DNA from: Flavobacteriales bacterium
Lineage (GTDB): Bacteria; Bacteroidota; Bacteroidia; CAIKAF01
DNA length: 59,182 nt
Assembly (NCBI GenBank): GCA_022402535.1
Contig: JAKRSD010000030.1
Location: 1 to 59,182 of the forward strand
Reading direction: 5' to 3'
Both the position numbers and the translations under genes were made by a program. Under the pieces are notes generated by a model. The model was not told where the DNA came from. It saw only the letters and a program-made list of their open reading frames with translations, and made no database searches. Shown here piece after piece: positions 4,864-21,156 of this stretch; position 1 is the first letter of the stretch; every line of letters begins with the position of its first letter.

Positions 4864-4987
4864 GTGGGTATCTTTTATGAATTAACCGTAAAAACGTTCC
4901 CGAAAATAGCACGCTTTTTTTCACTTTTGCACCAAATTAGACAAGCGGCAGGGAATTATCTGCCAAAAACCAATCAAAATACCTCAA

Positions 4988-6520
4988 ATGAGCACGGACG
5001 GCAACAAAAAAATCCAAAGAGCCCTTATTTCTGTTTTCGACAAAACAGGACTGGAACCCATCGTAAAAACCCTGCATGAACAAGGTGTGGAAATACTCAG
5101 CACCGGCGGAACCCGCGAGTTTGTGGAAGCGATGGGCATTCCCGTAACCAAGGTGGAAGACCTTACGGCATATCCTTCTATTCTGGGCGGTAGGGTAAAA
5201 ACCCTGCACCCTAAAGTATTCGGCGGAATTCTGGCCCGTACGGCAAACGCTTCGGACCTGGCCGAGCTGGAACAATACCAGATTCCTACGGTAAATCTGG
5301 TTATCGTGGATTTATATCCTTTCGAAAAAACGGTGGCTTCCACGCAGGATAAACAGGCTATCATTGAAAAAATAGACATAGGCGGCATTTCGCTGATTCG
5401 GGCAGCGGCTAAAAACCACAACGATGTGCTTATTGTGCCCTGTGTGGAATGGTACGAAAAACTGCATGCATTACTCACTTCACAAAACGGAGAAACTACG
5501 CTGGGCCAACGTCGTCTGTTTGCCGCCAAAGCGTTTGAGGTAAGTTCTCATTATGATACCGCCATTTTCAATTGGTTCAATACCGAAGAACAGATTCCGG
5601 CGCTTAAAATGAGCGAAACCACTGCCAAAACCCTTCGTTATGGCGAAAACCCGCACCAGAAAGGCTATTATTTCGGCGATTTTGAACGTGCGTTTGAACA
5701 GTTGAACGGCAAAGAAGTATCGTACAACAACCTGTTGGATATTGATGCGGCGGTGAATCTGATTGCCGACTTCCGCGAAACGGCTTTTGCCATTTTGAAA
5801 CATAACAATGCCTGCGGCATGGCAGAAGATGCAGTGCTGAAAAATGCTTATCTGAAAGCCCTTGCAGGCGATCCGGTTTCGGCATTCGGAGGGGTGCTGA
5901 TTACCAACCGTACTATTGATTTGGCCACGGCCGAAGAAATGAACAAACTCTTTTTTGAAGTAATCATAGCTCCGGCGTATGATGCTGAAGCATTGGAATT
6001 ATTGAAGTCTAAAACCAACCGGATTATTCTGCTCAACAAAGGTGTAACGCTTTCGGTCAATACGGTGCGCACGGCGCTCAACGGATTTTTGGTGCAGGAA
6101 CGCGACACCCTCACCGAAACCGCCGATATGCTGAAAACCGTAACCGATACCGCACCCACCCAAAGCCAGACCGCCGATTTACTTTTTGCCGTAAAACTGG
6201 TAAAACATACCAAATCCAACGCTATTATTTTGGTTAAAGACGGGCAGTTGGTGGGCATAGGCACGGGACATACCTCACGCATTGATGCGCTGAAACATGC
6301 TATTGCCAAAGCTGCCGAAGCCGGTCTGAGTGTGGAAGGAGCCGTAATGGCCAGCGATGCCTTTTTCCCGTTTAACGATTGTGTGCAGATTGCCCATGAA
6401 GCCGGTGTAAAAGCGGTTATACAGCCGGGCGGTTCCGTGCGCGATAAAGACTCGGTGGACTATTGTAACCAAAACGGACTGGCGATGGTGATGACCGGCG
6501 TACGCCATTTTAAGCATTGA
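4988..6520 (+). CDS. purH: Bifunctional AICAR formyltransferase / IMP cyclohydrolase
   Basis: PurH (510 residues) performs the last two steps of purine synthesis in the cytosol: formylation of AICAR by 10-formyl-THF and closure to IMP. The N-terminal MGS-like IMP cyclohydrolase domain shows STGGT (38-42) and KTLHPK (71-76). The formyltransferase domain shows RYGENPHQ (217-224) and the Lys-His pair in KHNNACG (271-277). Length matches the family (about 510-530). It stands upstream of the mre operon, an order common in Bacteroidota, but 554 bases and a separate mreB promoter separate them. A CACTTTTG box at 4922-4929 is a weak promoter candidate. Confidence 0.97.
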   Translation: MSTDGNKKIQRALISVFDKTGLEPIVKTLHEQGVEILSTGGTREFVEAMGIPVTKVEDLTAYPSILGGRVKTLHPKVFGGILARTANASDLAELEQYQIPTVNLVIVDLYPFEKTVASTQDKQAIIEKIDIGGISLIRAAAKNHNDVLIVPCVEWYEKLHALLTSQNGETTLGQRRLFAAKAFEVSSHYDTAIFNWFNTEEQIPALKMSETTAKTLRYGENPHQKGYYFGDFERAFEQLNGKEVSYNNLLDIDAAVNLIADFRETAFAILKHNNACGMAEDAVLKNAYLKALAGDPVSAFGGVLITNRTIDLATAEEMNKLFFEVIIAPAYDAEALELLKSKTNRIILLNKGVTLSVNTVRTALNGFLVQERDTLTETADMLKTVTDTAPTQSQTADLLFAVKLVKHTKSNAIILVKDGQLVGIGTGHTSRIDALKHAIAKAAEAGLSVEGAVMASDAFFPFNDCVQIAHEAGVKAVIQPGGSVRDKDSVDYCNQNGLAMVMTGVRHFKH

Positions 6521-6743
6521 TGGGTTGGTTGGTTGTCTGTAAATGGTTAATAGGCAATTATTCCGCTATGCTCCATAATGCGCTTCGCTCCGGGAATTAG
6601 GCAATAGTCTTTGTTCTTATGTTATATTATTTGAATTCTGTCTTTGATCTTTGTTCAATTATCATAAGCAAACAGCACATAAGCACATCGATTTATCTGC
6701 ACATTAAAATCCCTGATTCTGAAAACCACCCATGAGCTGGCGC

Positions 6744-6810
6744 GGGATGGAAGCGGGCAGTCCGGAGTGCAGACGCTTCGGTCGGCACGAGGACTGTGAG
6801 CGGACAGCCC
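6744..6810 (+). ncRNA. Candidate structured RNA or intergenic hairpin element
   Basis: CAGTCC (6758-6763) pairs with GGACTG (6791-6796). Inside it GTGC (6767-6770) pairs with GCAC (6785-6788), and GAC (6772-6774) pairs with GTC (6781-6783) around a GCTTCG loop. The hairpin is flanked by GGGATGGAAGCGGG on the left and TGAGCGGACAGCCC on the right, whose outer GGG and CCC can also pair. The flank pattern (GGGAT-GAAGCGG ... GAGCGGA-AGCCC) resembles an element I recall as recurrent between genes in Bacteroidota. I cannot name the family, and the strand is not certain. Confidence 0.45.
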
Positions 6811-6971
6811 AACACGGACATCGGTTTGAAAACGGCCGCTGAACCGCCCCTAAAAAAAAATTTGATTGTATTCAAATGCATTGATTTGTTTACCATACAT
6901 CCTCGAAAATGCCCACTTTTTTCGTTAAAAGGAACTACCCAAAATTACTTTCAGGATTATTCAAACATTTA

Positions 6972-7004
6972 TTTGCTAAAGCCGGCTTAAAACCTATATT
7001 TTTG
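6972..7004 (+). promoter_or_regulatory. mreB operon promoter (Bacteroidota type)
   Basis: TTTG at 6972-6975 (-33) and TATTTTTG at 6997-7004 (-7, TAnnTTTG) are separated by 21 bases, the spacing expected for the primary sigma factor of Bacteroidota. The mreB start lies 70 bases downstream. Confidence 0.7.
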
Positions 7005-7074
7005 CACAACAGAATGTTAACCGATTACATTCTTTTTAATTATTTGATTTTCAACTTAGTAAAGATATTTTAAC

Positions 7075-8097
7075 GTGGGTTTATTTGATTTTTTAACGCA
7101 GGAAATTGCCATCGACTTGGGTACGGCAAACACCCTCATCATACACAATGACAAAGTAGTGGTAGATGAACCGTCTATCGTAGCCATGGATGCCAAAAGC
7201 GGAAAAGTGATTGCCATAGGCAAAGAAGCCCTGCTGATGGAAGGAAAAACCCACTCCAAAATAGAAACCGTACGCCCGCTGAAAGACGGAGTGATTGCCG
7301 ATTTCTACGCCGCCGAGGAAATGATTCGCGGGATGATTAAAAAAATCACCAGCAAAAAGAGTTTTATTAAACCTTCGCTGCGCATGGTAATCTGTATTCC
7401 CTCCGGCATTACCGAGGTGGAAAAACGCGCCGTAAAAGACAGCGCCGAGCATGCAGGAGGCAAAGAAGTATATCTGATACATGAGCCTATGGCGGCAGCC
7501 ATAGGTATCGGTATCGATGTGGAAGAACCCAACGGAAATATGGTGATTGACATAGGCGGCGGAACTTCTGAAATTGCCGTAATTGCCTTGGGCGGTATCG
7601 TGTGTGATAAATCCATCCGCGTGGCGGGAGATGACTTTAACAACGACATTGAAGAATACATGCGCCGCCAACACAACATGATGGTGGGCACCCGCACGGC
7701 CGAACGTATTAAAATTGAAGTGGGCGCCGCACTTACCGAATTAGACAATCCGCCCGAAGATTTTAAAGTACACGGACGCGACCTGATGACCGGAATTCCC
7801 AAAGAACAGTCGATTACTTATTCTGAAATTGCATACGCTCTCGATAAATCACTTTCTAAAATTGAAGCCGCCGTACTCAGCGCCCTGGAAATGACTCCTC
7901 CTGAGTTATCCGCAGATATTTACAAAACCGGAATTTATCTTACCGGCGGCGGGGCCCTGCTTCGCGGACTGGATAAGCGCATCAGCATGAAAACCAAACT
8001 GCCCGTACACGTGGCCGAAGATCCGCTGAGAGCCGTAGCCCGCGGAACCGGAATTGCACTCAAAAACATTGACCGGTTTACCTTCCTGTTGAAATAA
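7075..8097 (+). CDS. mreB: Rod shape-determining protein MreB
   Basis: MreB (340 residues) is the bacterial actin that forms membrane-bound filaments and positions the cell-elongation machinery. The phosphate-binding loop DLGTANT (14-20) and the second ATP-site motif DIGGGTSE are present, and length is typical (330-350). The N-terminal GLFDFLTQEIAIDLG segment includes the short hydrophobic stretch used for membrane attachment. The start is GTG; no other start fits the conserved N-terminus. It is the first gene of mreB-mreC-mreD-mrdA-rodA, so the cell is expected to grow as a rod during at least part of its cycle. Confidence 0.97.
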   Translation: MGLFDFLTQEIAIDLGTANTLIIHNDKVVVDEPSIVAMDAKSGKVIAIGKEALLMEGKTHSKIETVRPLKDGVIADFYAAEEMIRGMIKKITSKKSFIKPSLRMVICIPSGITEVEKRAVKDSAEHAGGKEVYLIHEPMAAAIGIGIDVEEPNGNMVIDIGGGTSEIAVIALGGIVCDKSIRVAGDDFNNDIEEYMRRQHNMMVGTRTAERIKIEVGAALTELDNPPEDFKVHGRDLMTGIPKEQSITYSEIAYALDKSLSKIEAAVLSALEMTPPELSADIYKTGIYLTGGGALLRGLDKRISMKTKLPVHVAEDPLRAVARGTGIALKNIDRFTFLLK

Positions 8098-8218
8098 CTG
8101 CCGTAAACGGGTATTTTTCTACCTTTACGAACCGAACAAAATATGTATTCAACAGGCAGCACCCGAAAGGTAAAACCCGAGGGAGCATTCTGCCGGTAAA
8201 GGAAAACCAGGGGCACAC

Positions 8219-9055
8219 ATGCATAATTTTGCAGAATTCTTCAGAAAATACAGCCAGTTGATTTTATTCACCTTTCTGCTGGGTGTGAGCCTGTTTTTTA
8301 TTTATAAAAATAACCGATACCAGCGCGTACTCATTTTTAATGCCGCCAACGAAACCGCCGGCAGAGCCTACACCGTATATGCCGATGCCCGCGAGTATCT
8401 GGATTTGCGCAAAAGCAACCGTCTGCTCGCCGAAGAAAATGCTTCGCTCCGTGCGCAACTGCTGGCCGATAAATACAAAATTTACAACAAATGGGTTAAT
8501 GCCGACACCACCTACAAACAGACATTCACCTACATCCCGGCGCGGGTAATCAACAACTCGGTGGATAAAGCCAATAACTACGTAACCCTGAATGTGGGTT
8601 CGCTGCATGGCGTTAAACCCGACATGGGTGTTATATCGCCCGATGGCGTGGTGGGCGTAATCAAAAGTGTATCCACCCATTTTTCGGTGGCCATTTCGCT
8701 GCTGCACCGCAAACTGCAACTCAGTGCAAGGCTAAGGGGTTCATCCTTTTTTGGTTCACTGCAATGGCAGGGCACCGACGAAAACACCCTGGTGCTGGAA
8801 TATATTCCTTCTTATGCCGAAATTGCCGTAGGCGATACCGTTGAAACCACCACCTATTCTTCCATCTTTCCTGAAGGGATTGCCATAGGCACCGTAAAAT
8901 CATTTGATGTGGATGCCGACGAAGGATATTTTAGAATTTTGGTGAAACCCACTTCCGAATTCAGAAAACTGAACAATGTGTACGTGGTAAATTTCACCCT
9001 GAAAGAAGAACAGCTTATATTGGAGCAGGAAGCAAGGAAAGGAGATCCCAAATGA
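8219..9055 (+). CDS. mreC: Rod shape-determining protein MreC
   Basis: MreC (278 residues) is a periplasmic scaffold that joins MreB to PBP2-RodA. One N-terminal transmembrane helix (about residues 12-30) is followed by a coiled-coil region (about 55-85, with NRLLAEENASLRAQL) and a two-barrel beta-rich domain with NYVTLNVGSLHGV and GVISPDGVVGV, which are family hallmarks. The gene starts 121 bases after mreB and overlaps mreD by four bases. A TACCTTTA sequence in the mreB-mreC gap is a possible but weak internal promoter. Confidence 0.95.
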   Translation: MHNFAEFFRKYSQLILFTFLLGVSLFFIYKNNRYQRVLIFNAANETAGRAYTVYADAREYLDLRKSNRLLAEENASLRAQLLADKYKIYNKWVNADTTYKQTFTYIPARVINNSVDKANNYVTLNVGSLHGVKPDMGVISPDGVVGVIKSVSTHFSVAISLLHRKLQLSARLRGSSFFGSLQWQGTDENTLVLEYIPSYAEIAVGDTVETTTYSSIFPEGIAIGTVKSFDVDADEGYFRILVKPTSEFRKLNNVYVVNFTLKEEQLILEQEARKGDPK

Positions 9056-9567
9056 CACTGAATCTGTTGAAATATTCGGCCTATTTTGTCTTTCTGATCT
9101 TGTTGGAAGTGTTTGTGATTGCCAAATTCAACATTCATTTCTACTTTAATCCGCATGCCTATATCCTGTTCATCATCATGCTGCCCGTATTTACCAACAG
9201 GCACCTGATTATTTTTCTGGGTTTTCTGATGGGTTTTATCGTGGATCAGTTTATGGGCACGGGCGGGCTTCATGCCGCAGCCACACTCATCATGGCCTAC
9301 ATGCGAAAAATATTGTTGGGTGCTTTTGCTCCCCGCGAAGAATACGGAAAAGACGATTTTCTGACCATTAAAAAATTCGGACTCGTGAACTTTCTGTTCT
9401 ACTGCGGATTCATGATTGTCATTCACCATTTTTTCCTGTTTCTGCTGGAATTATTCACATTCCGAAATTTTTTATTCACGCTCCTCCGCACCCTGTTAAG
9501 CGGTACGTTATCTTTGCTCATGATTATGGGATTGCACCTCTTGTTTTCCCGTAAATCGGCAAAATGA
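9052..9567 (+). CDS. mreD: Rod shape-determining protein MreD
   Basis: This 171-residue protein is almost entirely hydrophobic, with about five predicted transmembrane helices, as expected of MreD, the small inner-membrane component of the elongasome. Sequence conservation of MreD is low across phyla, so the call rests on size, topology and position. The ATG lies inside the mreC stop (ATGA overlap), and its own stop overlaps the next start in the same way, so translation is probably coupled. Confidence 0.9.
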   Translation: MTLNLLKYSAYFVFLILLEVFVIAKFNIHFYFNPHAYILFIIMLPVFTNRHLIIFLGFLMGFIVDQFMGTGGLHAAATLIMAYMRKILLGAFAPREEYGKDDFLTIKKFGLVNFLFYCGFMIVIHHFFLFLLELFTFRNFLFTLLRTLLSGTLSLLMIMGLHLLFSRKSAK

Positions 9568-11408
9568 ACGAAACGGGGAATAAAAAATGGATTTTCGTGG
9601 GAGTTTTTCTCTTTTTGGGCACTGTATTTCTGCTCAAACTGGCCATGCTCCAGATTTTTGACGAAGACTATAAAAAGTACGCCAACATGAATGCCATCCG
9701 CAGGGTGGTGCAGTTCCCGCCCCGTGGCTATATTCTGGATCGCAACGGCGAACTGATGGTTTACAACGAAGTTTCTTACGACTTAATGGTTATTCCGCGC
9801 GAAGCGGAAGAATTAGACACCACCGAGTTCTGCATGCTGGCCGATATGAGCAAAGAAGAGTTTGTGAAAGGCATGAGCAACATTTTTGACCAGGTAGAAA
9901 AAAAGAGACTGTCCCGCAGTCAGCCCACTCCGCTCATAAAGCAGATGGCCAAAGAAAACGTGGCTACGCTGGAAGAAAAAATGTATAAATACCCCGGTTA
10001 TTTTCTTCAACCGCGCATTCTGCGTAAATACCCCAAGCCTGTAGGTGCACACATTCTGGGTTATATCGGTGAGGCCGACGAAAATCTGATAAATTCTGAT
10101 TCTTACTATAAACCCGGCGATTATGTGGGCAAAAGCGGATTGGAAAAATCGTACGAGGAAGTATTGCGCGGTGTGAAGGGGGTGAAAAACCTGTATGTAG
10201 ACAACCTGAACAATCCCAAAGGAAGCTACATGGATGGTCAATACGACACTACCGCCGTACCCGGGAAAAATATTACCTGTACCATTGATCTTAACCTTCA
10301 GGAATACGGTGAGCAGTTAATGGTAAACAAAAAAGGGGGTATTGTAGCCATTGAACCCAAAACCGGCGAAATTCTGGCCATGGTTTCGAGTCCTACTTAT
10401 GACCCTAATCTGCTTGTGGGTAGAGGTATTCGTAAAAATTATCCGATTTTATTGCAGGACAAAAACCTGCCTCTGTTTAACCGTACCAATATGGACGGAT
10501 ACCCACCCGGCTCTACGTTCAAACTGCTGAACGGACTCATCGGACTGCAATTGGGCGTAATTACCCCCGAAACCAAATATGGCTGTGCCGGTGGTTTTGT
10601 GGCCGGCGGATTACGGGTAGGCTGTCACGCACATGCCTCTCCGTCAGATTTGCGATATTCCATACAAACCTCATGTAATGCCTATTACTGCCAGGTTTTC
10701 AGGGCCATTGTGCAAAACGAGAAAAAGGCTGAGGACGGCTTCAATATCTGGAGAGAGTATATGCTCAGTTTCGGCATAGGCAGTGATTTCCCGGACAGTG
10801 ATATACCCAATACCAAAACAGGACTATTACCCACGGCAGAGCGTTACAATAAAATTTATGGCAAAGGCGGCTGGAAAGCCCTCACCATCATTTCGTTGGC
10901 CATCGGACAGGGCGAAATGAAAGTAAATGTGCTGCAATTGGCCAATATGACCGCCATGATAGCCAACCGGGGCTATTTCATCACTCCGCATTTACTGAAA
11001 AGTATTCACGAAAATGATACAGACCGCAAGGTACAGTTCAAAAAGAACCAAACTAAAGTGGATGCAAAACATTTTGACCCCGTGATTGAAGGCATGGAGT
11101 GTGTGGTAACCGGCGGCACGGGACGTGTAACCCAAATTGACACTATCCGCATTGGCGGTAAAACCGGAACCGCACAAAACCCGCATGGTAAGGATCATAG
11201 TGTTTTTATTGCGTTTGCCCCCGTGAATGACCCCAAAATAGCCATTGCCGTGTTTGTAGAAAATTCGGGATTCGGAGCTACCTGGGCGGCACCGATTGCC
11301 AGCCTGATGATAGAAAAATACCTGAGGGGTAAAATTTCCAGACCCGACATGGAAAAAAGAATGTTTGAAGGCAACCTGATGAACACCGTAAAACCTCCTG
11401 TACCATGA
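9564..11408 (+). CDS. mrdA: Penicillin-binding protein 2 (elongasome transpeptidase)
   Basis: This 614-residue class B PBP cross-links peptidoglycan during side-wall growth together with RodA. One membrane helix (about 8-30) is followed by the PBP dimer domain and a transpeptidase domain with catalytic STFK (317-320), SCN (370-372) and KTGT (533-536). A Cys-containing loop (Cys341 and Cys354, with CHAHAS) lies between the first two motifs; E. coli PBP2 binds zinc in this part of the protein, so a metal or disulfide role is possible. The start overlaps mreD and the stop overlaps rodA by four bases each. Confidence 0.96.
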   Translation: MNETGNKKWIFVGVFLFLGTVFLLKLAMLQIFDEDYKKYANMNAIRRVVQFPPRGYILDRNGELMVYNEVSYDLMVIPREAEELDTTEFCMLADMSKEEFVKGMSNIFDQVEKKRLSRSQPTPLIKQMAKENVATLEEKMYKYPGYFLQPRILRKYPKPVGAHILGYIGEADENLINSDSYYKPGDYVGKSGLEKSYEEVLRGVKGVKNLYVDNLNNPKGSYMDGQYDTTAVPGKNITCTIDLNLQEYGEQLMVNKKGGIVAIEPKTGEILAMVSSPTYDPNLLVGRGIRKNYPILLQDKNLPLFNRTNMDGYPPGSTFKLLNGLIGLQLGVITPETKYGCAGGFVAGGLRVGCHAHASPSDLRYSIQTSCNAYYCQVFRAIVQNEKKAEDGFNIWREYMLSFGIGSDFPDSDIPNTKTGLLPTAERYNKIYGKGGWKALTIISLAIGQGEMKVNVLQLANMTAMIANRGYFITPHLLKSIHENDTDRKVQFKKNQTKVDAKHFDPVIEGMECVVTGGTGRVTQIDTIRIGGKTGTAQNPHGKDHSVFIAFAPVNDPKIAIAVFVENSGFGATWAAPIASLMIEKYLRGKISRPDMEKRMFEGNLMNTVKPPVP

Positions 11409-12754: not shown

Positions 12755-12839
12755 ACCGCAAATTTCCGTTTAACATTTGTTACCCTTTTCCCTGCATTTC
12801 TTTCACAATTTCTTAGCTATGCCCGGCGTTTACGTTGGC

Positions 12840-13406
12840 ATGAGGGGGAGATTTTGTTTTATATTATTAGCAGGTGTTTCGGGCGTAGCAAATGCCCAAA
12901 GACCTATACCGGCTGCCATGGGAGCCGGATCACTGCATACCGGAATACAACCGGCCCAATACACCGAGACTGTAGCCCGTACAATGAACCTGAGCGGAGG
13001 TGAATTTTACATGAAATCAAATAAAAAAATCGGGTTTGATGCCGTTACGGTTTCAACACTGAAAACCACATCCGATAACATTCAAAAACAAAATCTTTCG
13101 CTTTCCGGATTTAATGTAATCTGTTATAAATCGGAAGGTTTTACCACCAAAATTTATGTTTCGCAGGGGTTTAACTTCCGGCAGAATATTACTAAAAGCT
13201 CCACCCGCGAACAAAGCACCTTCGAGGGTTTTTCACCGGTTTTTTCGGCAGGATTGGGTATGGAATATACCTTCAGCAAATTTTTTGAATTGTTTGCCAG
13301 GGTGCGCTGGATGGGCGGCGACATCACCGAAAAAGGGGCTGACGATTTTCGGTATGGACAGGTGGTGGTTCATTCCGGTTTATCTTGCAAACTCAACAGA
13401 CTTTAA
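12840..13406 (+). CDS. Small secreted, probably outer-membrane beta-barrel-like protein
   Basis: I do not recognise a family. From the ATG at 12840 the product has 188 residues and a clean Sec signal peptide (RGRFCFILLAGVSGVANAQ). Longer starts at 12777 and 12819 would bury the signal behind extra residues, so they are less likely. The mature protein alternates hydrophobic and polar residues and has segments such as KIYVSQGFNFRQNI and FELFARVRWMGGDI that look like membrane beta-strands. It ends in a hydrophobic residue. It may be a small barrel or a surface-exposed protein, and lies between the mre operon and lnt with no functional link apparent. Confidence 0.65.
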   Translation: MRGRFCFILLAGVSGVANAQRPIPAAMGAGSLHTGIQPAQYTETVARTMNLSGGEFYMKSNKKIGFDAVTVSTLKTTSDNIQKQNLSLSGFNVICYKSEGFTTKIYVSQGFNFRQNITKSSTREQSTFEGFSPVFSAGLGMEYTFSKFFELFARVRWMGGDITEKGADDFRYGQVVVHSGLSCKLNRL

Positions 13407-13574: not shown

Positions 13575-15173
13575 TTGAAAAAAGCGATTCCTGTTTTTCT
13601 GTCGGTTTTATCGGGATTGTTGCTGTCTGCAGCATGGCCCGCTCAGGGATTTCCCGCATTGGTATGTGTGGCATTGGTTCCCCTACTTTATGCTACGGAA
13701 CGTATTCAGGAATTGAACTTACGCTTAGGTGCCGTGCGGGTTTGGGCACTCAGTTATACCGCATTTTTTATATGGAATCTGCTCACCACCTGGTGGGTGT
13801 ATAACAGTTCGCCCGAAGGCGGATATATTGCGGTTATATTCAACTCACTGTTTATGTCATGGGCCTACTACCTGGCCTATCTTACCCGACTCAAACTGGG
13901 AAACAAAAAGGGCGATTGGGCGCTGATACTTTTTTGGGTGAGTTTTGAATATCTGCACATGAATTGGGATTTATCCTGGCCCTGGCTCAATCTGGGCAAT
14001 GCATTTGCTCCGTATCCCGAATGGGTGCAATGGTACTCGTATACAGGCGTTTTAGGAGGAAGTGTTTGGATTCTGACTGCAAACATCATGGTGTACAGAG
14101 CCATCCGCTATCGCGCAGTATCCCGTTGGGTTACGGCCGCATTCGCCATAGGAATTCCGGTTATTATTTCCTATTCCATGTATTTCTCATACGAAGAGAA
14201 AGGCACTCCGCTCAACATTACGGTGGTGCAGCCCAATATTGACCCCTGGAACGAAAAATTTGAAAACGGAACCCGCAGGACTCAATATTTCAAAATGATG
14301 AGCCTGGCCAAAGAAAAAACCAATGCGGAAACGGATTATCTGGTTTTCCCGGAAACTGCACTGCCCGTAAGTTTTTGGAATTTTGAAACCGATTCATTAC
14401 CCGAAATTCAGAATATGCGGAGGTTTTTGTCCGCGTTTCCCAAAACCAAAATCATTATCGGAGTCAGTTATCTGGAATTGTTGGACGAAACAGACCCCGC
14501 CCGGATACCCATTTCGGCATCGCGCTACGGAAATTCAGGATTGTTTTACGACGACTATAATTCGGCCATACAGATTGACACTTCGGTCCATGTGCCTATT
14601 TACCATAAATCCAAATTGGTGCCCGGTCCCGAATCTTTTCCCTTTGCCAAGTATTTGCAGCCGTTCCAGAAACAATTGTTCGGCGATTTGGGTGGCATGA
14701 TCGGCAATCTGGGAACTCAAAAAGAGCGCAGTGTATTTTATGCGCATGACAATCCCGAGCAATCGGTGGGTACCATTATCTGCTACGAAAGTGTGTATGG
14801 CGAATTTGTTACGGAGTACGTACAGAAAGGTGCCGGTCTGCTGTTTATTATTACCAACGACGGCTGGTGGGGAAATACGCCGGGGTACAAACAACATTTT
14901 CAATATGCAAGGCTTAGAGCCATTGAAACCCGGAGATGTGTAGCCCGTTCGGCCAATACGGGAATATCTGGATTTATTAACCAACGGGGCGATGTTCTGC
15001 AGCAAACTCCTTATTGGGAAGATGCCGTTATTTCAGAAAATTTACTCCATAATACAGCGATTACATTTTATGTGCAGTACGGCGATTATCTGGGCCGTCT
15101 TTCGTTGTTTTTGAGCATTTTTCTTCTTTTGTATGTGTTTGTGAAAGATTTTTTAAAGAAAAAGCAACTCTAA
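13575..15173 (+). CDS. lnt: Apolipoprotein N-acyltransferase
   Basis: Lnt (532 residues) adds the third acyl chain to the N-terminal Cys of lipoproteins in the inner membrane, the step before Lol sorting. The first 200 residues hold about six membrane helices, followed by a nitrilase-fold domain with the catalytic triad visible as Glu260 (VFPETALP), Lys345 (YHKSKLVPG) and Cys403 (ICYESVYGE). The start is TTG; the sequence MKKAIPVFLS directly precedes the first helix. It is the first gene of a very tight cluster: its stop is followed immediately by the next ATG. Confidence 0.95.
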   Translation: MKKAIPVFLSVLSGLLLSAAWPAQGFPALVCVALVPLLYATERIQELNLRLGAVRVWALSYTAFFIWNLLTTWWVYNSSPEGGYIAVIFNSLFMSWAYYLAYLTRLKLGNKKGDWALILFWVSFEYLHMNWDLSWPWLNLGNAFAPYPEWVQWYSYTGVLGGSVWILTANIMVYRAIRYRAVSRWVTAAFAIGIPVIISYSMYFSYEEKGTPLNITVVQPNIDPWNEKFENGTRRTQYFKMMSLAKEKTNAETDYLVFPETALPVSFWNFETDSLPEIQNMRRFLSAFPKTKIIIGVSYLELLDETDPARIPISASRYGNSGLFYDDYNSAIQIDTSVHVPIYHKSKLVPGPESFPFAKYLQPFQKQLFGDLGGMIGNLGTQKERSVFYAHDNPEQSVGTIICYESVYGEFVTEYVQKGAGLLFIITNDGWWGNTPGYKQHFQYARLRAIETRRCVARSANTGISGFINQRGDVLQQTPYWEDAVISENLLHNTAITFYVQYGDYLGRLSLFLSIFLLLYVFVKDFLKKKQL

Positions 15174-15812
15174 ATGGCCGTACAACCGCTGTATATAACC
15201 TCCAGCATACTAATCCGAAACGGGAAGGTATTTAAAAACGGAAAAGAATTGCTGAATCGGGCCGATGCCGACAGTGCCGGATTTTTGAAAGCCCTTTACG
15301 AAAAAACAGGCGTTTCGTACCCTAAATTTTATAAAATGGACAACCTCTGCAAAGCCGCCTGGGCCGGGGCAGAATTGCTGGTGCAGGGAACCGGTTTCAA
15401 CGAAATCTATTCTTCCGAAAAAAAGGGAATCTTTTTACAAAACGCGGCTTCATCTTCCGATACCGATTTGAAACATGCAGCCAGTATCGCCTCTGTCGAA
15501 CAATATTTTCCATCACCGGCGGTATTTGTGTACACCCTGCCCAATATCACCATAGGCGAAATTTGCATCCGCCACAAAATGCAGGGCTCGTCTGCTTTTT
15601 TTATCTTTGAGGGCTTTGAGCCCGATTTTTTGCTCGAACAAGTTCAAATTCATATGGATGCAGGGAGAACAGATGCCTGCATTACCGGAATAACCGAGTG
15701 GTTCGGGAACCAATATGAAATTTGTTTGTTTATGGTGGAGAAAAAGGCGGGCGGGGAGTTTTCCCTTGCATTAATGACAGAAAACATGAAAACAATTTAT
15801 AATCAATCCTAA
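15174..15812 (+). CDS. Ketosynthase-like N-terminal fragment protein
   Basis: This 212-residue protein starts on the base after the lnt stop. Segments such as FVYTLPNITIGEICIRHKMQG followed by a GEI-type turn resemble the N-terminal half of a thiolase-fold ketosynthase of the kind seen in flexirubin / aryl-polyene clusters of Bacteroidota. The catalytic Cys and both His are missing, and the protein ends where the second half of a ketosynthase would begin. It may be an inactive partner of the ketosynthases encoded downstream. The family assignment is by eye and tentative. Confidence 0.5.
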   Translation: MAVQPLYITSSILIRNGKVFKNGKELLNRADADSAGFLKALYEKTGVSYPKFYKMDNLCKAAWAGAELLVQGTGFNEIYSSEKKGIFLQNAASSSDTDLKHAASIASVEQYFPSPAVFVYTLPNITIGEICIRHKMQGSSAFFIFEGFEPDFLLEQVQIHMDAGRTDACITGITEWFGNQYEICLFMVEKKAGGEFSLALMTENMKTIYNQS

Positions 15813-15814
15813 CC

Positions 15815-16075
15815 ATGGAAAAACAAGAATTGATAGAAACACTGAAAGGTCAAATTATTACCCAACTGAACCTGGAAGGCATGCAGCCCGAAGAAATTGA
15901 TGCCGATGCTGCCCTGTTTGGCGACGGACTCGGTCTCGACAGCATTGATGCCTTAGAACTGATTGTGTTGCTCGAGAAAGAATACGGAATCAAGATTGAA
16001 GACCCGAAAGAAGGCAAAAAAATATTTCATAGTGTAACCACGCTGGCGGATTACATTCTGGCGAACAAGCCATAA
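15815..16075 (+). CDS. Acyl carrier protein
   Basis: This 86-residue acidic protein is a phosphopantetheine carrier. The attachment Ser lies in the GLDSIDALEL motif (around residue 42), in the expected place at the start of helix 2. It starts two bases after the previous stop and ends three bases before the ketosynthase gene. Because it is encoded with ketosynthases and not with the general fabF/fabD genes, it is probably dedicated to a specialised acyl or polyene product and not to membrane fatty-acid synthesis. Confidence 0.9.
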   Translation: MEKQELIETLKGQIITQLNLEGMQPEEIDADAALFGDGLGLDSIDALELIVLLEKEYGIKIEDPKEGKKIFHSVTTLADYILANKP

Positions 16076-16078
16076 TCC

Positions 16079-17269
16079 ATGAAAGTTTTTATTACCGGCA
16101 TAGGAGCCGTATCGGCTATTGGGATGGATGTTTCGCAGATGCTGGAATCTCTGGTGGCTGAAAAACATGGAATCGGGCGTGTTTCCATTTTAGAAACCGC
16201 ACATGCCGATACCCTGCCCTGCGGCGAAATAAAAATCACGGACGAAGAATTTATACAGCGGTTGGGTATACCTCCCGACCGAAAAATAAACCGCACCACC
16301 CTGCTGGCTATTACAGCCGTTCAGGAAGCATTGGCCTCCTCAGGCGGAAAAATATCAGATCCGCTACGAACCGGGCTTATTTCTTCCACCACCGTGGGCG
16401 GAATGACCACGACCGAGAAATATTTTTATGATTTTGATTCGGTTCCCGAAACCCGCGACTGGATTGAAAAACTCGATTGCGGAGACAGCACCAATGATAT
16501 CGCAAAATACATCGGGCATCGTGGATTTATGACTACGCTGAGCACGGCGTGTTCTTCATCGGCCAATGCCATTATTTTGGGGGCCAATATGATTAAAGCC
16601 GGATTGTTGGATCGGGTAATCTGCGGGGGCGCCGATGCCTTGTCCAAATTCACCATCAACGGGTTCAACTCACTCATGCTGTTGGAACAGGAACACTGCC
16701 GTCCGTTTGATAAAGAGCGTAAAGGCCTCAATCTGGGCGAAGGAGCAGGGTTTGTGGTGATAGAAAGCGAAAGAGCCGTGGAAGAATATCAGCGCACACC
16801 GCTTGCCGAAGTGGCAGGATACAGTAATGTGAACGATGCATTTCATCAGACTGCCTCATCGCCCGACGGAGCAGGAGCACAAATGGCCATGAAAAATGCC
16901 ATGCTAATGGCAGGCGTGTCGCCCGCTGACATTGATTACATCAACGTACACGGAACCGGCACACCCAATAACGACGAGAGTGAAAGTAAAGCCATCAAAG
17001 CCATTTTTGAAAAGGCACCGTCATTCAGCAGCACAAAAGCCTACACCGGTCATACATTGGCAGCCGCAGGCGGAATTGAAGCCGTAATTTCCGTGTTGGC
17101 TATACGCAACAGACTGCTCTTTCCGAATCTTAATTATAAAAACCGGATGGATGATATCGACTTTGACCCGGTTACCCAACTGGTTGAAAACGCCGATATC
17201 CGTCATGTCATCTCCAATTCCTTCGGATTTGGCGGGAATAATACCTCATTACTCTTCAGAAAAGTATAA
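16079..17269 (+). CDS. Beta-ketoacyl-ACP synthase (active-site-complete)
   Basis: This 396-residue condensing enzyme has the full catalytic set: Cys158 in STACSSS, His291 in VHGTGTPNNDE and Lys320/His325 in KAYTGHTLAAAGG. It would extend an acyl chain on the neighbouring carrier protein by decarboxylative Claisen condensation. FabF-like in length and layout, but its company (a carrier protein, a degenerate ketosynthase, a deacetylase) indicates a dedicated pathway such as an aryl polyene, flexirubin-like pigment or unusual lipid. No ketoreductase or dehydratase is encoded beside it, so those steps would be borrowed from primary metabolism. Confidence 0.9.
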   Translation: MKVFITGIGAVSAIGMDVSQMLESLVAEKHGIGRVSILETAHADTLPCGEIKITDEEFIQRLGIPPDRKINRTTLLAITAVQEALASSGGKISDPLRTGLISSTTVGGMTTTEKYFYDFDSVPETRDWIEKLDCGDSTNDIAKYIGHRGFMTTLSTACSSSANAIILGANMIKAGLLDRVICGGADALSKFTINGFNSLMLLEQEHCRPFDKERKGLNLGEGAGFVVIESERAVEEYQRTPLAEVAGYSNVNDAFHQTASSPDGAGAQMAMKNAMLMAGVSPADIDYINVHGTGTPNNDESESKAIKAIFEKAPSFSSTKAYTGHTLAAAGGIEAVISVLAIRNRLLFPNLNYKNRMDDIDFDPVTQLVENADIRHVISNSFGFGGNNTSLLFRKV

Positions 17270-17271
17270 CC

Positions 17272-18318
17272 ATGTACATTACCGGCTTAGGAAATATATC
17301 GCCCCAGTTCACATACGAAGGAACCACCTTTCCGGAAGAAGCACGGAATTATCCGGGAAACCGCCTGTTTTGTGTGGAACCGGAGTATAAAAACTACATC
17401 GGTCCCGTGCAGATTCGCCGTATGGGCCGGATTGTGAAAATGGGCATTTCCTCCGCAAAAATGGCGCTTGCCGATGCCGGCATCACCCTACCCGATGCCA
17501 TTATGGTGGGTACAGGATTAGGATGTCTGGAGGATACCGAAAAGTTTCTGCGCATTATGATAGATGATGCCGAACAAACCGCCGCACCAACCCCTTTCAT
17601 ATCGAGTACACACAATAACGTAGCCGGCGCTATAGCACTTCAGATAAAGTGTCTGGGATATAATTATACCTACGTACACAAAGGATTTTCATTTGTTTCC
17701 TGCCTATATGATGCCGCTTTGCAGATTCAGCTTAATCAAGCATCGCATGTGCTGGTGGGCGGAATTGATGAAATGACCGATACGAAATACCACAACAACG
17801 GCCTCATCAACAACTGGAATACTCAAACACCTGACACACTGAATGTTTTTGAACACCAAAGTCTGGGAAGTATTGCAGGAGAAGGCAGTGCCTTTTTTGT
17901 ATTGTCAAAAGAAAAAATAAAACCCGGCGACCCAAAAATTATTGGATTTAAACAGTTTTATTCCGAAGAAGCGGAAGACCTTTCCGAAGCATTTCATCAA
18001 TTTTTGTTGGAGCACGGTTTATTGGGCGAAGAGTTTGTGTTGTTGGAAGGGCGTTCGGGAAACACACGCTATTATCCATTTTACGAAGCGTCAGAAAAGG
18101 TGGCCGGACCGCGGGCGGTAAAAGCCGTATTCAAACACCTGTGCGGTTCTTATTACACCTCCGATGCATTTGCACTTTGGTCCGCTGCACAAATCATAAA
18201 ATCAGGCCATGTACCCGCTATGTTTTTGCCCTCACGCGAGATTCAAAATCCGCGCTATGTGGTGGTTTACGACCACGTAAGCTATGGCGAACATGTATTC
18301 CAAATTATATCGGTTTGA
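17272..18318 (+). CDS. Degenerate ketosynthase, chain-length-factor-like
   Basis: This 348-residue protein keeps the ketosynthase fold signature (AGAIALQIKCLG and VLVGGIDEMTD) but not the catalytic residues. Aligning by eye to the active enzyme upstream, the active Cys falls at Gly138 in VHKGFSF, the HGTGT motif is replaced by LLEGRSGNTRYY, and no GH motif is found near the end. Inactive partners of this sort form heterodimers with an active ketosynthase and set chain length. It starts two bases after the active ketosynthase gene and overlaps the deacetylase start by four bases. Confidence 0.75.
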   Translation: MYITGLGNISPQFTYEGTTFPEEARNYPGNRLFCVEPEYKNYIGPVQIRRMGRIVKMGISSAKMALADAGITLPDAIMVGTGLGCLEDTEKFLRIMIDDAEQTAAPTPFISSTHNNVAGAIALQIKCLGYNYTYVHKGFSFVSCLYDAALQIQLNQASHVLVGGIDEMTDTKYHNNGLINNWNTQTPDTLNVFEHQSLGSIAGEGSAFFVLSKEKIKPGDPKIIGFKQFYSEEAEDLSEAFHQFLLEHGLLGEEFVLLEGRSGNTRYYPFYEASEKVAGPRAVKAVFKHLCGSYYTSDAFALWSAAQIIKSGHVPAMFLPSREIQNPRYVVVYDHVSYGEHVFQIISV

Positions 18319-19058
18319 AAATAAAACTCATTCTGGCCCTTTCGGTATTTTTTTCTCTGCTTGTGATACAAACCCTGAGCAAAGCGGGCTATTGTTCCGA
18401 ATGGTGGATGTTACTTCCTATAGTTTTAGGACTAATCGTATTGGTCTGGGGCGTGGTGAATATCAATTCGCAGATGTTCGTAAAAACCGAGTGTCATTTT
18501 ACTCCCGAAGGAAACGAAATCATGCTCACTTTTGACGATGGTCCCGACCCTGTACAAACTCCGAAACTGCTCGATTTGCTTGATACTTATGAGGCCAAGG
18601 GCATATTTTTTTTCATCGGAAAAAAAATGGAAGCCCATCCCGAAATGGTGAAAATAGTATCCGAAAAAGGACATGAAATCGGCTCCCACTCCTACTCTCA
18701 CGGATATGGATTTGATTTTCTTTCAGCAGAAAAAGTAAAAAACGAACTGCTTCAGACTGAAAAAATAATCAAGCGCATCACGGGAAAAAAAACAACCTTT
18801 TTCCGCCCGCCTTACGGTATCACCAATCCCAATATTGCCAAGGCTTTACAATTCTTTTCGTATCGGGTACTCGGATGGAATATACGTTCGTTTGACACGG
18901 TAATTCAATCGCCCGAAAAATTAGAAAAGCGGGTACTGAAACGCATCAAACCCGGTTCCATCATTCTACTGCACGATACGGCTTCCGCAGCTCCCGAAGT
19001 GTTGGAAAAGATTTTGATATTTATGAAAGAAAAAGGGTTCAGCACACGCCTGCCATAA
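18315..19058 (+). CDS. Membrane-anchored polysaccharide deacetylase (NodB-like)
   Basis: The start is taken as TTG 18315, overlapping the previous stop as TTGA; this gives 247 residues beginning with two hydrophobic segments (about 5-24 and 31-50). Starts further upstream would read through the preceding gene. The catalytic domain shows TFDDGPD (72-78, metal Asp pair), HSYSH (125-129, zinc His) and RPPYG, the standard carbohydrate esterase family 4 motifs, ending in a HD-containing LLHDTASA motif. It should remove N- or O-acetyl groups from a cell-envelope sugar. Its presence at the end of the ketosynthase operon recalls flexirubin-type clusters, where a similar gene is found. Confidence 0.88.
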   Translation: MKIKLILALSVFFSLLVIQTLSKAGYCSEWWMLLPIVLGLIVLVWGVVNINSQMFVKTECHFTPEGNEIMLTFDDGPDPVQTPKLLDLLDTYEAKGIFFFIGKKMEAHPEMVKIVSEKGHEIGSHSYSHGYGFDFLSAEKVKNELLQTEKIIKRITGKKTTFFRPPYGITNPNIAKALQFFSYRVLGWNIRSFDTVIQSPEKLEKRVLKRIKPGSIILLHDTASAAPEVLEKILIFMKEKGFSTRLP

Positions 19059-19080: not shown

Positions 19081-21156
19081 TTGTATTTATATCCGTCAGA
19101 CACCACCGAAAAGCTCGAATTTGACCAGGTAAAAATCGCCATGGCGGAAGTATGCAGGAACCCCGCCGCCAAAAACAAACTCAGGCAGCTGATGCCTTTG
19201 GAAAGCAGCGAAGAAATTACCCGGCTGCTGAGTGAGACCAAGGAATTTTTGAATACGGTAAATCACGGACTGTATTTTCCCGATCCCGGCTGCGAAGACA
19301 TATCGCGAGAACTTTCCTTATTGGCCGTTCCGGGAAGCGTGCTGCAGGAAAAGCAGTTCATGGATATAAAATCGGTGGCCGATGCCGCCAATACCTGGAT
19401 TGAATGGCTGAAAGACAAACAGGAGGCTTATCCGGCATTATATGCCCGGGTAGAAAACCTGGAGCCCGACAAGTATATTTCTAAAGAAATTGAACAGATT
19501 CTGGATGCACACGGCATTGTGCGTTCCAATGCTTCCAGCGAATTATCGTCTATCCGCAGTTTGCTGGCAAAAGCCCGCAAAGAACACGAACGCATTTTTA
19601 ATCATGCCCTGAGCAAAGGCCGAAAAGCCGGCATATTGGCCGAAACAGGCGAAACCTTTATAAACGGAAGGCGGGTACTGAGTGTACTTTCAGAAAATAA
19701 ACGGGAGATAAAGGGAATCATTCACGGCTATTCAAAAACAGGAAAAGCCACCTATATAGAACCCGGCGAAACCGTGGAATGGGGCAATGAAATTACGCTG
19801 CTGGAATCGGAAGAAAAGCGCGAAATCCATCGTATTCTGCGCGAACTTACCCATACTCTGCGGAGCCGGAAAAACATTCTGGACACCTTTTTTGAACTGC
19901 TGCTTCATTTAGAAGTTACCCGTTCTAAAGCCGTATGGGCAAGCCGGAGTGGTGCTTCGGTGCCAATTTTCGGCAAAAACAGGGGTATCCGGCTCAAAGA
20001 GGCCACCCATCCCCTGTTGGCCGAAAAAAACCGGCAGACAGGAAAACCGACAATTCCGCTTAATCTGATACTCGACACACGAAAAAGTATACTCATCATC
20101 AGCGGACCGAATGCCGGCGGAAAATCCGTTTCGCTCAAAACCGTGGGCCTGCTCCAACTGATGATTCAAAGCGGAATGCCCGTAACAGCCGATGAACGCA
20201 GTGAATTCGGGTATTTCAGAAACCTGCTGACCGATATCGGCGACAGCCAGAGTATAGAATATGAGCTGAGTACCTATTCCTCAAGGCTCATCAAAATGAA
20301 ACATTTTTTACAAAGGGCCGGTAAAGAAACCCTGTTTTTAATCGATGAATTCGGCACCGGTTCCGATCCCGAACTTGGAGGAGCCGTGGCTGAAGTAATA
20401 TTGGAAGAATTGGCGGCATCCAAATCGTTCGGCATTATAACCACACACTACGGAAACATCAAAGTAGCCGGCGAAAATCTGGAAGCTGTAGAAAATGCCT
20501 GTATGCTCTTTGATGATGAAACACTCAAGCCCCTGTATAAACTGGAAACCGGCAAACCCGGCAGTTCCTACACATTTGTAATTGCCGAAAAAAGCGGGCT
20601 GAACAAACACCTGATAAACCGGGCCAAAGAAAAAATCAGCGGCGAAAAAGTTCGGTTGGATACCATACTGAATTCCCTTCAGTTCAAAAGAAACAAACTC
20701 AACGAAGAGTTGAAAGAACTGAAAACAAAACTCCAAAAAGCAGAGGAAGCCAAAGCCCTTTTTGATGAAAAAAAGGAAAAGTTGGACACTAAAATGGACA
20801 AACTGAAAAACACCCGCGAAGAAGACCAGAAATTAATAGAGCTTGGAAAAAGGTTGAAATCGTTGACGGAAGAGTGGGAAAAGGAAAAAGATAAGAAGAA
20901 AGTGATTGCCAAATTTGTGAAACTGGCAGGTTGGCAAAAAGCAAAAGAAGCAGAGGAAAAAGAGAAAAAACGAAAAGAAAATACCCGCGAAAAAATCATA
21001 GCGCGGAAACTGGAGCAAATTCATGAAGGCAGCTCTGTGAGGCTGAAAGGAGGAAAAGAAATCGGAAAGGTGATGGTGCTGAAAGGCAGCAAAGCCAAGG
21101 TGCAGTTTGGCATCATGGTGATGGATATTTCAGTTGAAAATTTGGAAGTTTATTAA
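19081..21156 (+). CDS. MutS2-family ATPase lacking the Smr domain
   Basis: This 691-residue protein has the MutS2 layout: lever/clamp region, ATPase with GPNAGGKS (342-349), signature STYSSRL, Walker B LFLIDEFGTGSDP (418-430), then a long charged coiled coil (about 545-650). Bacterial MutS2 acts on branched DNA or rescues collided ribosomes. The usual C-terminal Smr nuclease domain is absent: the chain stops after a KOW-like segment (VRLKGGKEIG to LEVY). The start is TTG at 19081, chosen because LYPSDTTEKLEFD aligns with the conserved MutS2 N-terminus. It follows the deacetylase by 22 bases. Confidence 0.88.
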   Translation: MYLYPSDTTEKLEFDQVKIAMAEVCRNPAAKNKLRQLMPLESSEEITRLLSETKEFLNTVNHGLYFPDPGCEDISRELSLLAVPGSVLQEKQFMDIKSVADAANTWIEWLKDKQEAYPALYARVENLEPDKYISKEIEQILDAHGIVRSNASSELSSIRSLLAKARKEHERIFNHALSKGRKAGILAETGETFINGRRVLSVLSENKREIKGIIHGYSKTGKATYIEPGETVEWGNEITLLESEEKREIHRILRELTHTLRSRKNILDTFFELLLHLEVTRSKAVWASRSGASVPIFGKNRGIRLKEATHPLLAEKNRQTGKPTIPLNLILDTRKSILIISGPNAGGKSVSLKTVGLLQLMIQSGMPVTADERSEFGYFRNLLTDIGDSQSIEYELSTYSSRLIKMKHFLQRAGKETLFLIDEFGTGSDPELGGAVAEVILEELAASKSFGIITTHYGNIKVAGENLEAVENACMLFDDETLKPLYKLETGKPGSSYTFVIAEKSGLNKHLINRAKEKISGEKVRLDTILNSLQFKRNKLNEELKELKTKLQKAEEAKALFDEKKEKLDTKMDKLKNTREEDQKLIELGKRLKSLTEEWEKEKDKKKVIAKFVKLAGWQKAKEAEEKEKKRKENTREKIIARKLEQIHEGSSVRLKGGKEIGKVMVLKGSKAKVQFGIMVMDISVENLEVY

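Follow-up and report, generated by a model that had tools for sequence, protein, structure and literature searches.

A compact row of six genes in a Flavobacteriales bacterium places a lipoprotein acyltransferase gene directly before genes for ketosynthase-like proteins, a carrier protein and a deacetylase, and raises the question of which pathway such a set serves. The row lies in the window, that is, the whole stretch of 59,182 nucleotides that was analysed (contig JAKRSD010000030.1, positions 1 to 59,182), and comprises:

13575..15173, + strand: lnt, apolipoprotein N-acyltransferase; TTG start, LNT_N and CN_hydrolase domains
15174..15812, + strand: orf212, half-size ketosynthase-like protein without catalytic Cys; predicted ApeC-like chain-length-factor fold
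15815..16075, + strand: ACP, acyl carrier protein; PP-binding domain PF00550 (E 5.5e-10), NCBIfam PRK09184 82.2 bits (cut-off 70)
16079..17269, + strand: KS1, predicted active beta-ketoacyl-ACP synthase, ApeO-like; both ketoacyl-synt domains
17272..18318, + strand: KS2, full-length ketosynthase-like protein of chain-length-factor type; PF00109 42.4 bits, catalytic motifs absent
18315..19058, + strand: polysaccharide deacetylase of the NodB fold family; PF01522 E 1.2e-33, TTG start

We consider it highly probable that the segment 15174-19058 forms a single sub-operon within a pathway, complete but dispersed through the genome, for flexirubin, an aryl-polyene ester of a dialkylresorcinol. This reading is supported by the identities of the genes, the order of the block, the presence of the other pathway genes in the genome and the lack of linkage to lnt in the loci examined.

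The six-gene layout was as the preliminary description had given it, in place, + strand and tight packing. The successive junctions from lnt to the deacetylase gene measure 0, 2, 3, 2 and -4 nt: the ATG of orf212 (15174) abuts the stop codon of lnt (15171-15173), and the deacetylase start overlaps KS2 by 4 nt. Because the junctions are so tight, the block genes are likely to be carried on one transcript, which lnt possibly shares. Consensus scans for a promoter between lnt and orf212 yielded nothing useful, and the Bacteroidota-type promoter pattern was found three times in the window versus 3.8 expected. Upstream of lnt lie pbp2, rodA and a small open reading frame; the 209-aa frame between rodA and lnt (12777-13406) has no Pfam or NCBIfam match. 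Downstream, mutS2 (19081-21156) begins 22 bases after the deacetylase gene. The ACP is 81% identical to its homologue in the closest relative (genome G001). An assembly artefact is unlikely: the genes flanking the block, pbp2, rodA and lnt before it and mutS2 after it, share one 107 kb contig, and the remaining pathway parts sit within contigs, surrounded by unrelated genes.

The catalytic residues of KS1 (Cys158, His291 and His325) were invariant in 11 homologues, and its TACSS and HGTxT motifs were found in all 76 further homologues checked. Judged by these intact Cys-His-His motifs, KS1 is an active ketosynthase; its profile match to the ApeO structure 6qsp_A had an E value of 2.7e-78. KS2 itself has neither TAC[ASG] nor HGTxT, and neither motif was found in any of its 76 homologues, so that the proposed pair of one active and one inactive ketosynthase holds. 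Full-length KS2 matched the profile of ApeC (6qsp_B) with E 3.4e-9.

The product of orf212 had no match among Pfam and NCBIfam models. Its family profile was weakly related to the N-terminal halves of ketosynthases (E 0.0017) and to the KS2 profile (E 2.4e-4), and compared with KS1 alone gave E 0.066; 9 of 50 family members reached the Pfam ketosynthase domain, with E up to 0.01. The AlphaFold2 model (pLDDT 92.9, pTM 0.90) could be aligned almost from end to end with FabF and with chain length factors (Z 15.6-16.2, rmsd 3.4-3.8) and matched ApeC 6qsp_B in Foldseek (E 2e-5, TM 0.53). ApeC is described as having one thiolase fold and as being roughly half as large as the ketosynthase it pairs with (PMC8358021), which is why orf212 can be called ApeC-like: in size, predicted fold and missing Cys, it fits a half-size, dead ketosynthase of the ApeC chain-length-factor type. 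Its earlier labelling as fragmentary and ketosynthase-like is thus backed by both the profile and the predicted half-size fold, and a fold can now be proposed for a conserved family outside Pfam and NCBIfam coverage. Since orf212 and KS2 are both ApeC-like, the block would combine one active ketosynthase with two dead partners. It is conceivable, though we regard it as somewhat doubtful, that KS1, full-length KS2 and half-size orf212 form a three-part flexirubin ketosynthase that jointly sets polyene length, rather than a 1:1 pair like ApeO:ApeC.

A scan of named genomes with the orf212 family as query, from which the window's own genome may be missing, gave at least 587 relatives, and the best 80 loci were fetched. 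Among these, the exact order orf212-ACP-KS1-KS2-deacetylase was found in 58 and the order of the first four genes in 62. The hosts among these best 80 were Flavobacterium, Mucilaginibacter, Chitinophaga and Bacteroidota metagenome-assembled genomes, and the loci lay mostly within flexirubin clusters. The usual neighbours were genes for a lyase, reductase, ketosynthase, acyltransferase, DarA, DarB and dehydratases, together with an ABC transporter, thioesterase, LolA, GT2 and MMPL exporter. The same five-gene order stands in flexirubin-type surroundings in Flavobacterium johnsoniae CI04 (locus L145); with it and the other loci in exact order, the block can be taken as the conserved ketosynthase/ACP/deacetylase core of that pathway. 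The likeness to a part of flexirubin or aryl-polyene clusters seen earlier was therefore real. The deacetylase is FlxP-like by position, as it follows KS2 in those 58 of 80 loci. By gene order and annotation, the window genes would correspond to FlxL-FlxP. In Mucilaginibacter-type clusters orf212-KS1-KS2 was kept, with no matching ACP or deacetylase seen at that spot; several other exceptions were loci cut by contig ends.

The abutting lnt gene suggests another reading, in which the block belongs to a self-contained, lnt-linked pathway that provides lipoproteins or envelope lipids with an unusual acyl chain and relies on the reductase and dehydratase of fatty-acid synthesis. The zero gap between lnt and orf212, which makes co-transcription possible, speaks for it. 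Conservation of the adjacency, proposed in the preliminary description as a check, was not observed: a translated search detected lnt in none of the 80 homologous block loci, and of 18 lnt loci taken from relatives (two of them with short downstream flanks, from genomes without a KS1 orthologue), not one had the block beside lnt. These 18 include the closest relative, where pbp2-rodA-lnt is conserved and about 90 kb of the same contig separates it from the block; in two further genomes (G002 and G006) the block stands after a different long gene. In no other genome examined does the block abut lnt. The lnt product itself is an ordinary family member (TIGR00546, 233.8 bits, cut-off 132.9). As this genome also encodes a lyase, a reductase and a ligase dedicated to flexirubin, we give the lnt-linked pathway almost no credence. 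A functional link between lnt and the block was rejected on the absence of adjacency in both sets of loci; lnt is probably a chance, positional neighbour outside the pigment pathway.

The flexirubin reading requires genes that the window lacks, and homologues of these were located on other contigs of the genome. Contig C29 carries, at about 126-136 kb, a C45-family acyltransferase/hydrolase homologue, a FlxY ligase, an FAD oxidoreductase, the tyrosine ammonia-lyase FlxA, a FlxB reductase, a ketosynthase, an ACP and an acyltransferase. Three of these putative enzymes exceeded NCBIfam equivalog cut-offs: the FlxA-type lyase (NF053541, 816.3 bits, cut-off 700), the FlxY-type coumarate ligase (NF053551, 629.9 bits, cut-off 520) and the FlxB-type ketoreductase (NF053542, 383.3 bits, cut-off 340). 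The C45-family autoproteolytic acyltransferase/hydrolase homologue (locus L040, 1737-3425) stands right before the FlxY-type ligase gene, in the same order as in locus L114. A DarA homologue is encoded further along C29 (219558-220460, E 2.3e-88); it has no NCBIfam match, and its assignment, like that of orf212, rests on matches to cluster homologues. On contig C22, genes for a dehydratase and a DarB-family synthase lie at about 56-57 kb, and one for another ketosynthase at about 61 kb; this dehydratase had a FabZ match below the cut-off and was likewise assigned through cluster homologues. On C26 a LolA gene (51.9 kb) and a second dehydratase with GT2 (69.3 kb) were found, so that dehydratase homologues occur on both contigs. 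An exporter lies at 89.2 kb on C12 (E 6e-291), and ABC transporter genes with a thioesterase at 8-10 kb on C32. C12 also carries, at 4878-10509 of locus L043, a run of four genes on one strand, which was left out of the pathway assignment: it begins with a ketosynthase-like gene whose 382-aa product is about 26% identical to KS1. The window included, the pathway genes occupy about nine places.

The statement that the set has no reductase or dehydratase is therefore correct for this locus but not for the genome, and the ligase and glycosyltransferase, also listed as missing, lie on other contigs as well. The preliminary description had named as evidence against its reading the missing genes in a standard pigment cluster elsewhere, with lnt adjacency not conserved. 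This is largely what was found, except that the genes form several sub-operons and not one standard cluster. A separate, stripped-down pathway with an unusual acyl chain or borrowed fatty-acid enzymes is thus not supported, as dedicated genes are present elsewhere and the lnt adjacency was seen in no other genome examined.

Co-occurrence was examined in 40 genomes, 12 of them with KS1, the counts being uncorrected for relatedness. The lyase of tyrosine ammonia-lyase type and the exporter were each present in 10 of 12 KS1 genomes and in none of the 28 others, and DarA was present in 9 of the former and absent from all 28 of the latter. Lyase and exporter were both absent from two KS1 genomes, one of which is 77% complete.

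The end product might also be an aryl polyene without the dialkylresorcinol ester, that is, a lipid of the aryl-polyene (APE) or xanthomonadin type and not flexirubin. The DarB homologue reached 523.2 bits with the StlD/DarB subfamily model (cut-off 450) and 522.1 bits with the strict DarB exception model, under its cut-off of 550, and DarA and DarB are on different contigs; acyltransferases and glycosyltransferases of the kinds present are also carried by APE clusters (PMC8253772). Against this, homologues of both DarA and DarB are present, DarB at subfamily level, DarA was confined to KS1 genomes among the 40, and the scores of the lyase, reductase and ligase exceed the cut-offs of models specific to flexirubin. 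We regard an APE-type product as quite improbable and retain flexirubin.

The flx/dar loci of Chitinophaga pinensis and Flavobacterium johnsoniae contain FlxA, FlxB, FlxY, several ketosynthases, dehydratases and thioesterases, as well as a deacetylase, LolA, a glycosyltransferase and an exporter, with DarA/DarB making the dialkylresorcinol (PMC3992019). The same kinds of enzyme genes are found here, and the block order is that of F. johnsoniae locus L145. The flexirubin genes form one 37 kb cluster in F. johnsoniae and two loci in C. pinensis (PMC3992019), in contrast to the roughly ninefold dispersal in this genome. APE clusters of Proteobacteria (PMC8358021, PMC8253772) share with it the ApeO-like KS1, the ApeC-like proteins of dead ketosynthase fold (KS2 and orf212), and LolA, acyltransferase, thioesterase, dehydratase and exporter types. 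They differ in having one dead ketosynthase-like protein where there are two here, and this genome adds a tyrosine-derived starter made by the ammonia-lyase, and DarA/DarB. Arcuflavin of Azoarcus likewise combines polyene and dialkylresorcinol from physically unlinked loci, and the arc loci, like the set described here, include a polysaccharide deacetylase, LolA and an exporter; unlike it, they use a chorismate starter (ArcB), comprise two arc loci plus dar, and belong to a proteobacterium (PMC3949708). A split polyene pathway thus has precedents in the two loci of C. pinensis and the unlinked arc and dar loci of Azoarcus. Dispersal over about nine places is unusual for a flexirubin pathway and more extreme than these precedents, but not new in kind. 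No report of a scattered flexirubin pathway was found in the titles and abstracts of a partial literature set.

From these genes we infer an order of reactions and, with it, the pigment itself. The FlxA-type lyase would convert tyrosine to 4-coumarate, which the FlxY-type ligase would activate to a 4-coumaroyl starter. KS1 would condense malonyl units on the ACP onto this starter, and we infer its pairing with KS2 and orf212 as partners of chain-length-factor type. Each unit so added would be converted to a double bond by the FlxB-type reductase and the dehydratases, giving the aryl polyene, and the DarA homologue and DarB-family synthase would make the dialkylresorcinol to which it is esterified. 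Delivery of the pigment to the outer membrane would be aided by the LolA-like protein, the MMPL-type exporter, the glycosyltransferase, the acyltransferase and the deacetylase; such an export role was put forward by the authors of the flx/dar study as a proposal with no known mechanism (PMC3992019). One step of the pathway may have decayed. A puzzling partial operon is in this way very probably assigned to a known pigment pathway. With the genes of a flexirubin pathway dispersed in this way over about nine places, software that looks for clusters one locus at a time is expected to see fragments only.

Variants of the block were noted in other genomes. A second ACP-KS1-KS2 set occurs at locus L053 (G024:C27, 8204-10708), in a genome that also has a fuller flexirubin-type cluster (L052). 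Locus L055 (G026:C44, 7922-11834) is a small cluster of genes for a reductase, two dehydratases, an ACP and KS1-like and KS2-like proteins, the second dehydratase coming last. Its genome has no matching ammonia-lyase or DarA, and the cluster may be related to the aryl-polyene core but work without a lyase. In the uncultured Bacteroidales KR5_bin-778 (L095), the KS1-KS2 pair is present as a tandem duplicate within one flexirubin-type block.
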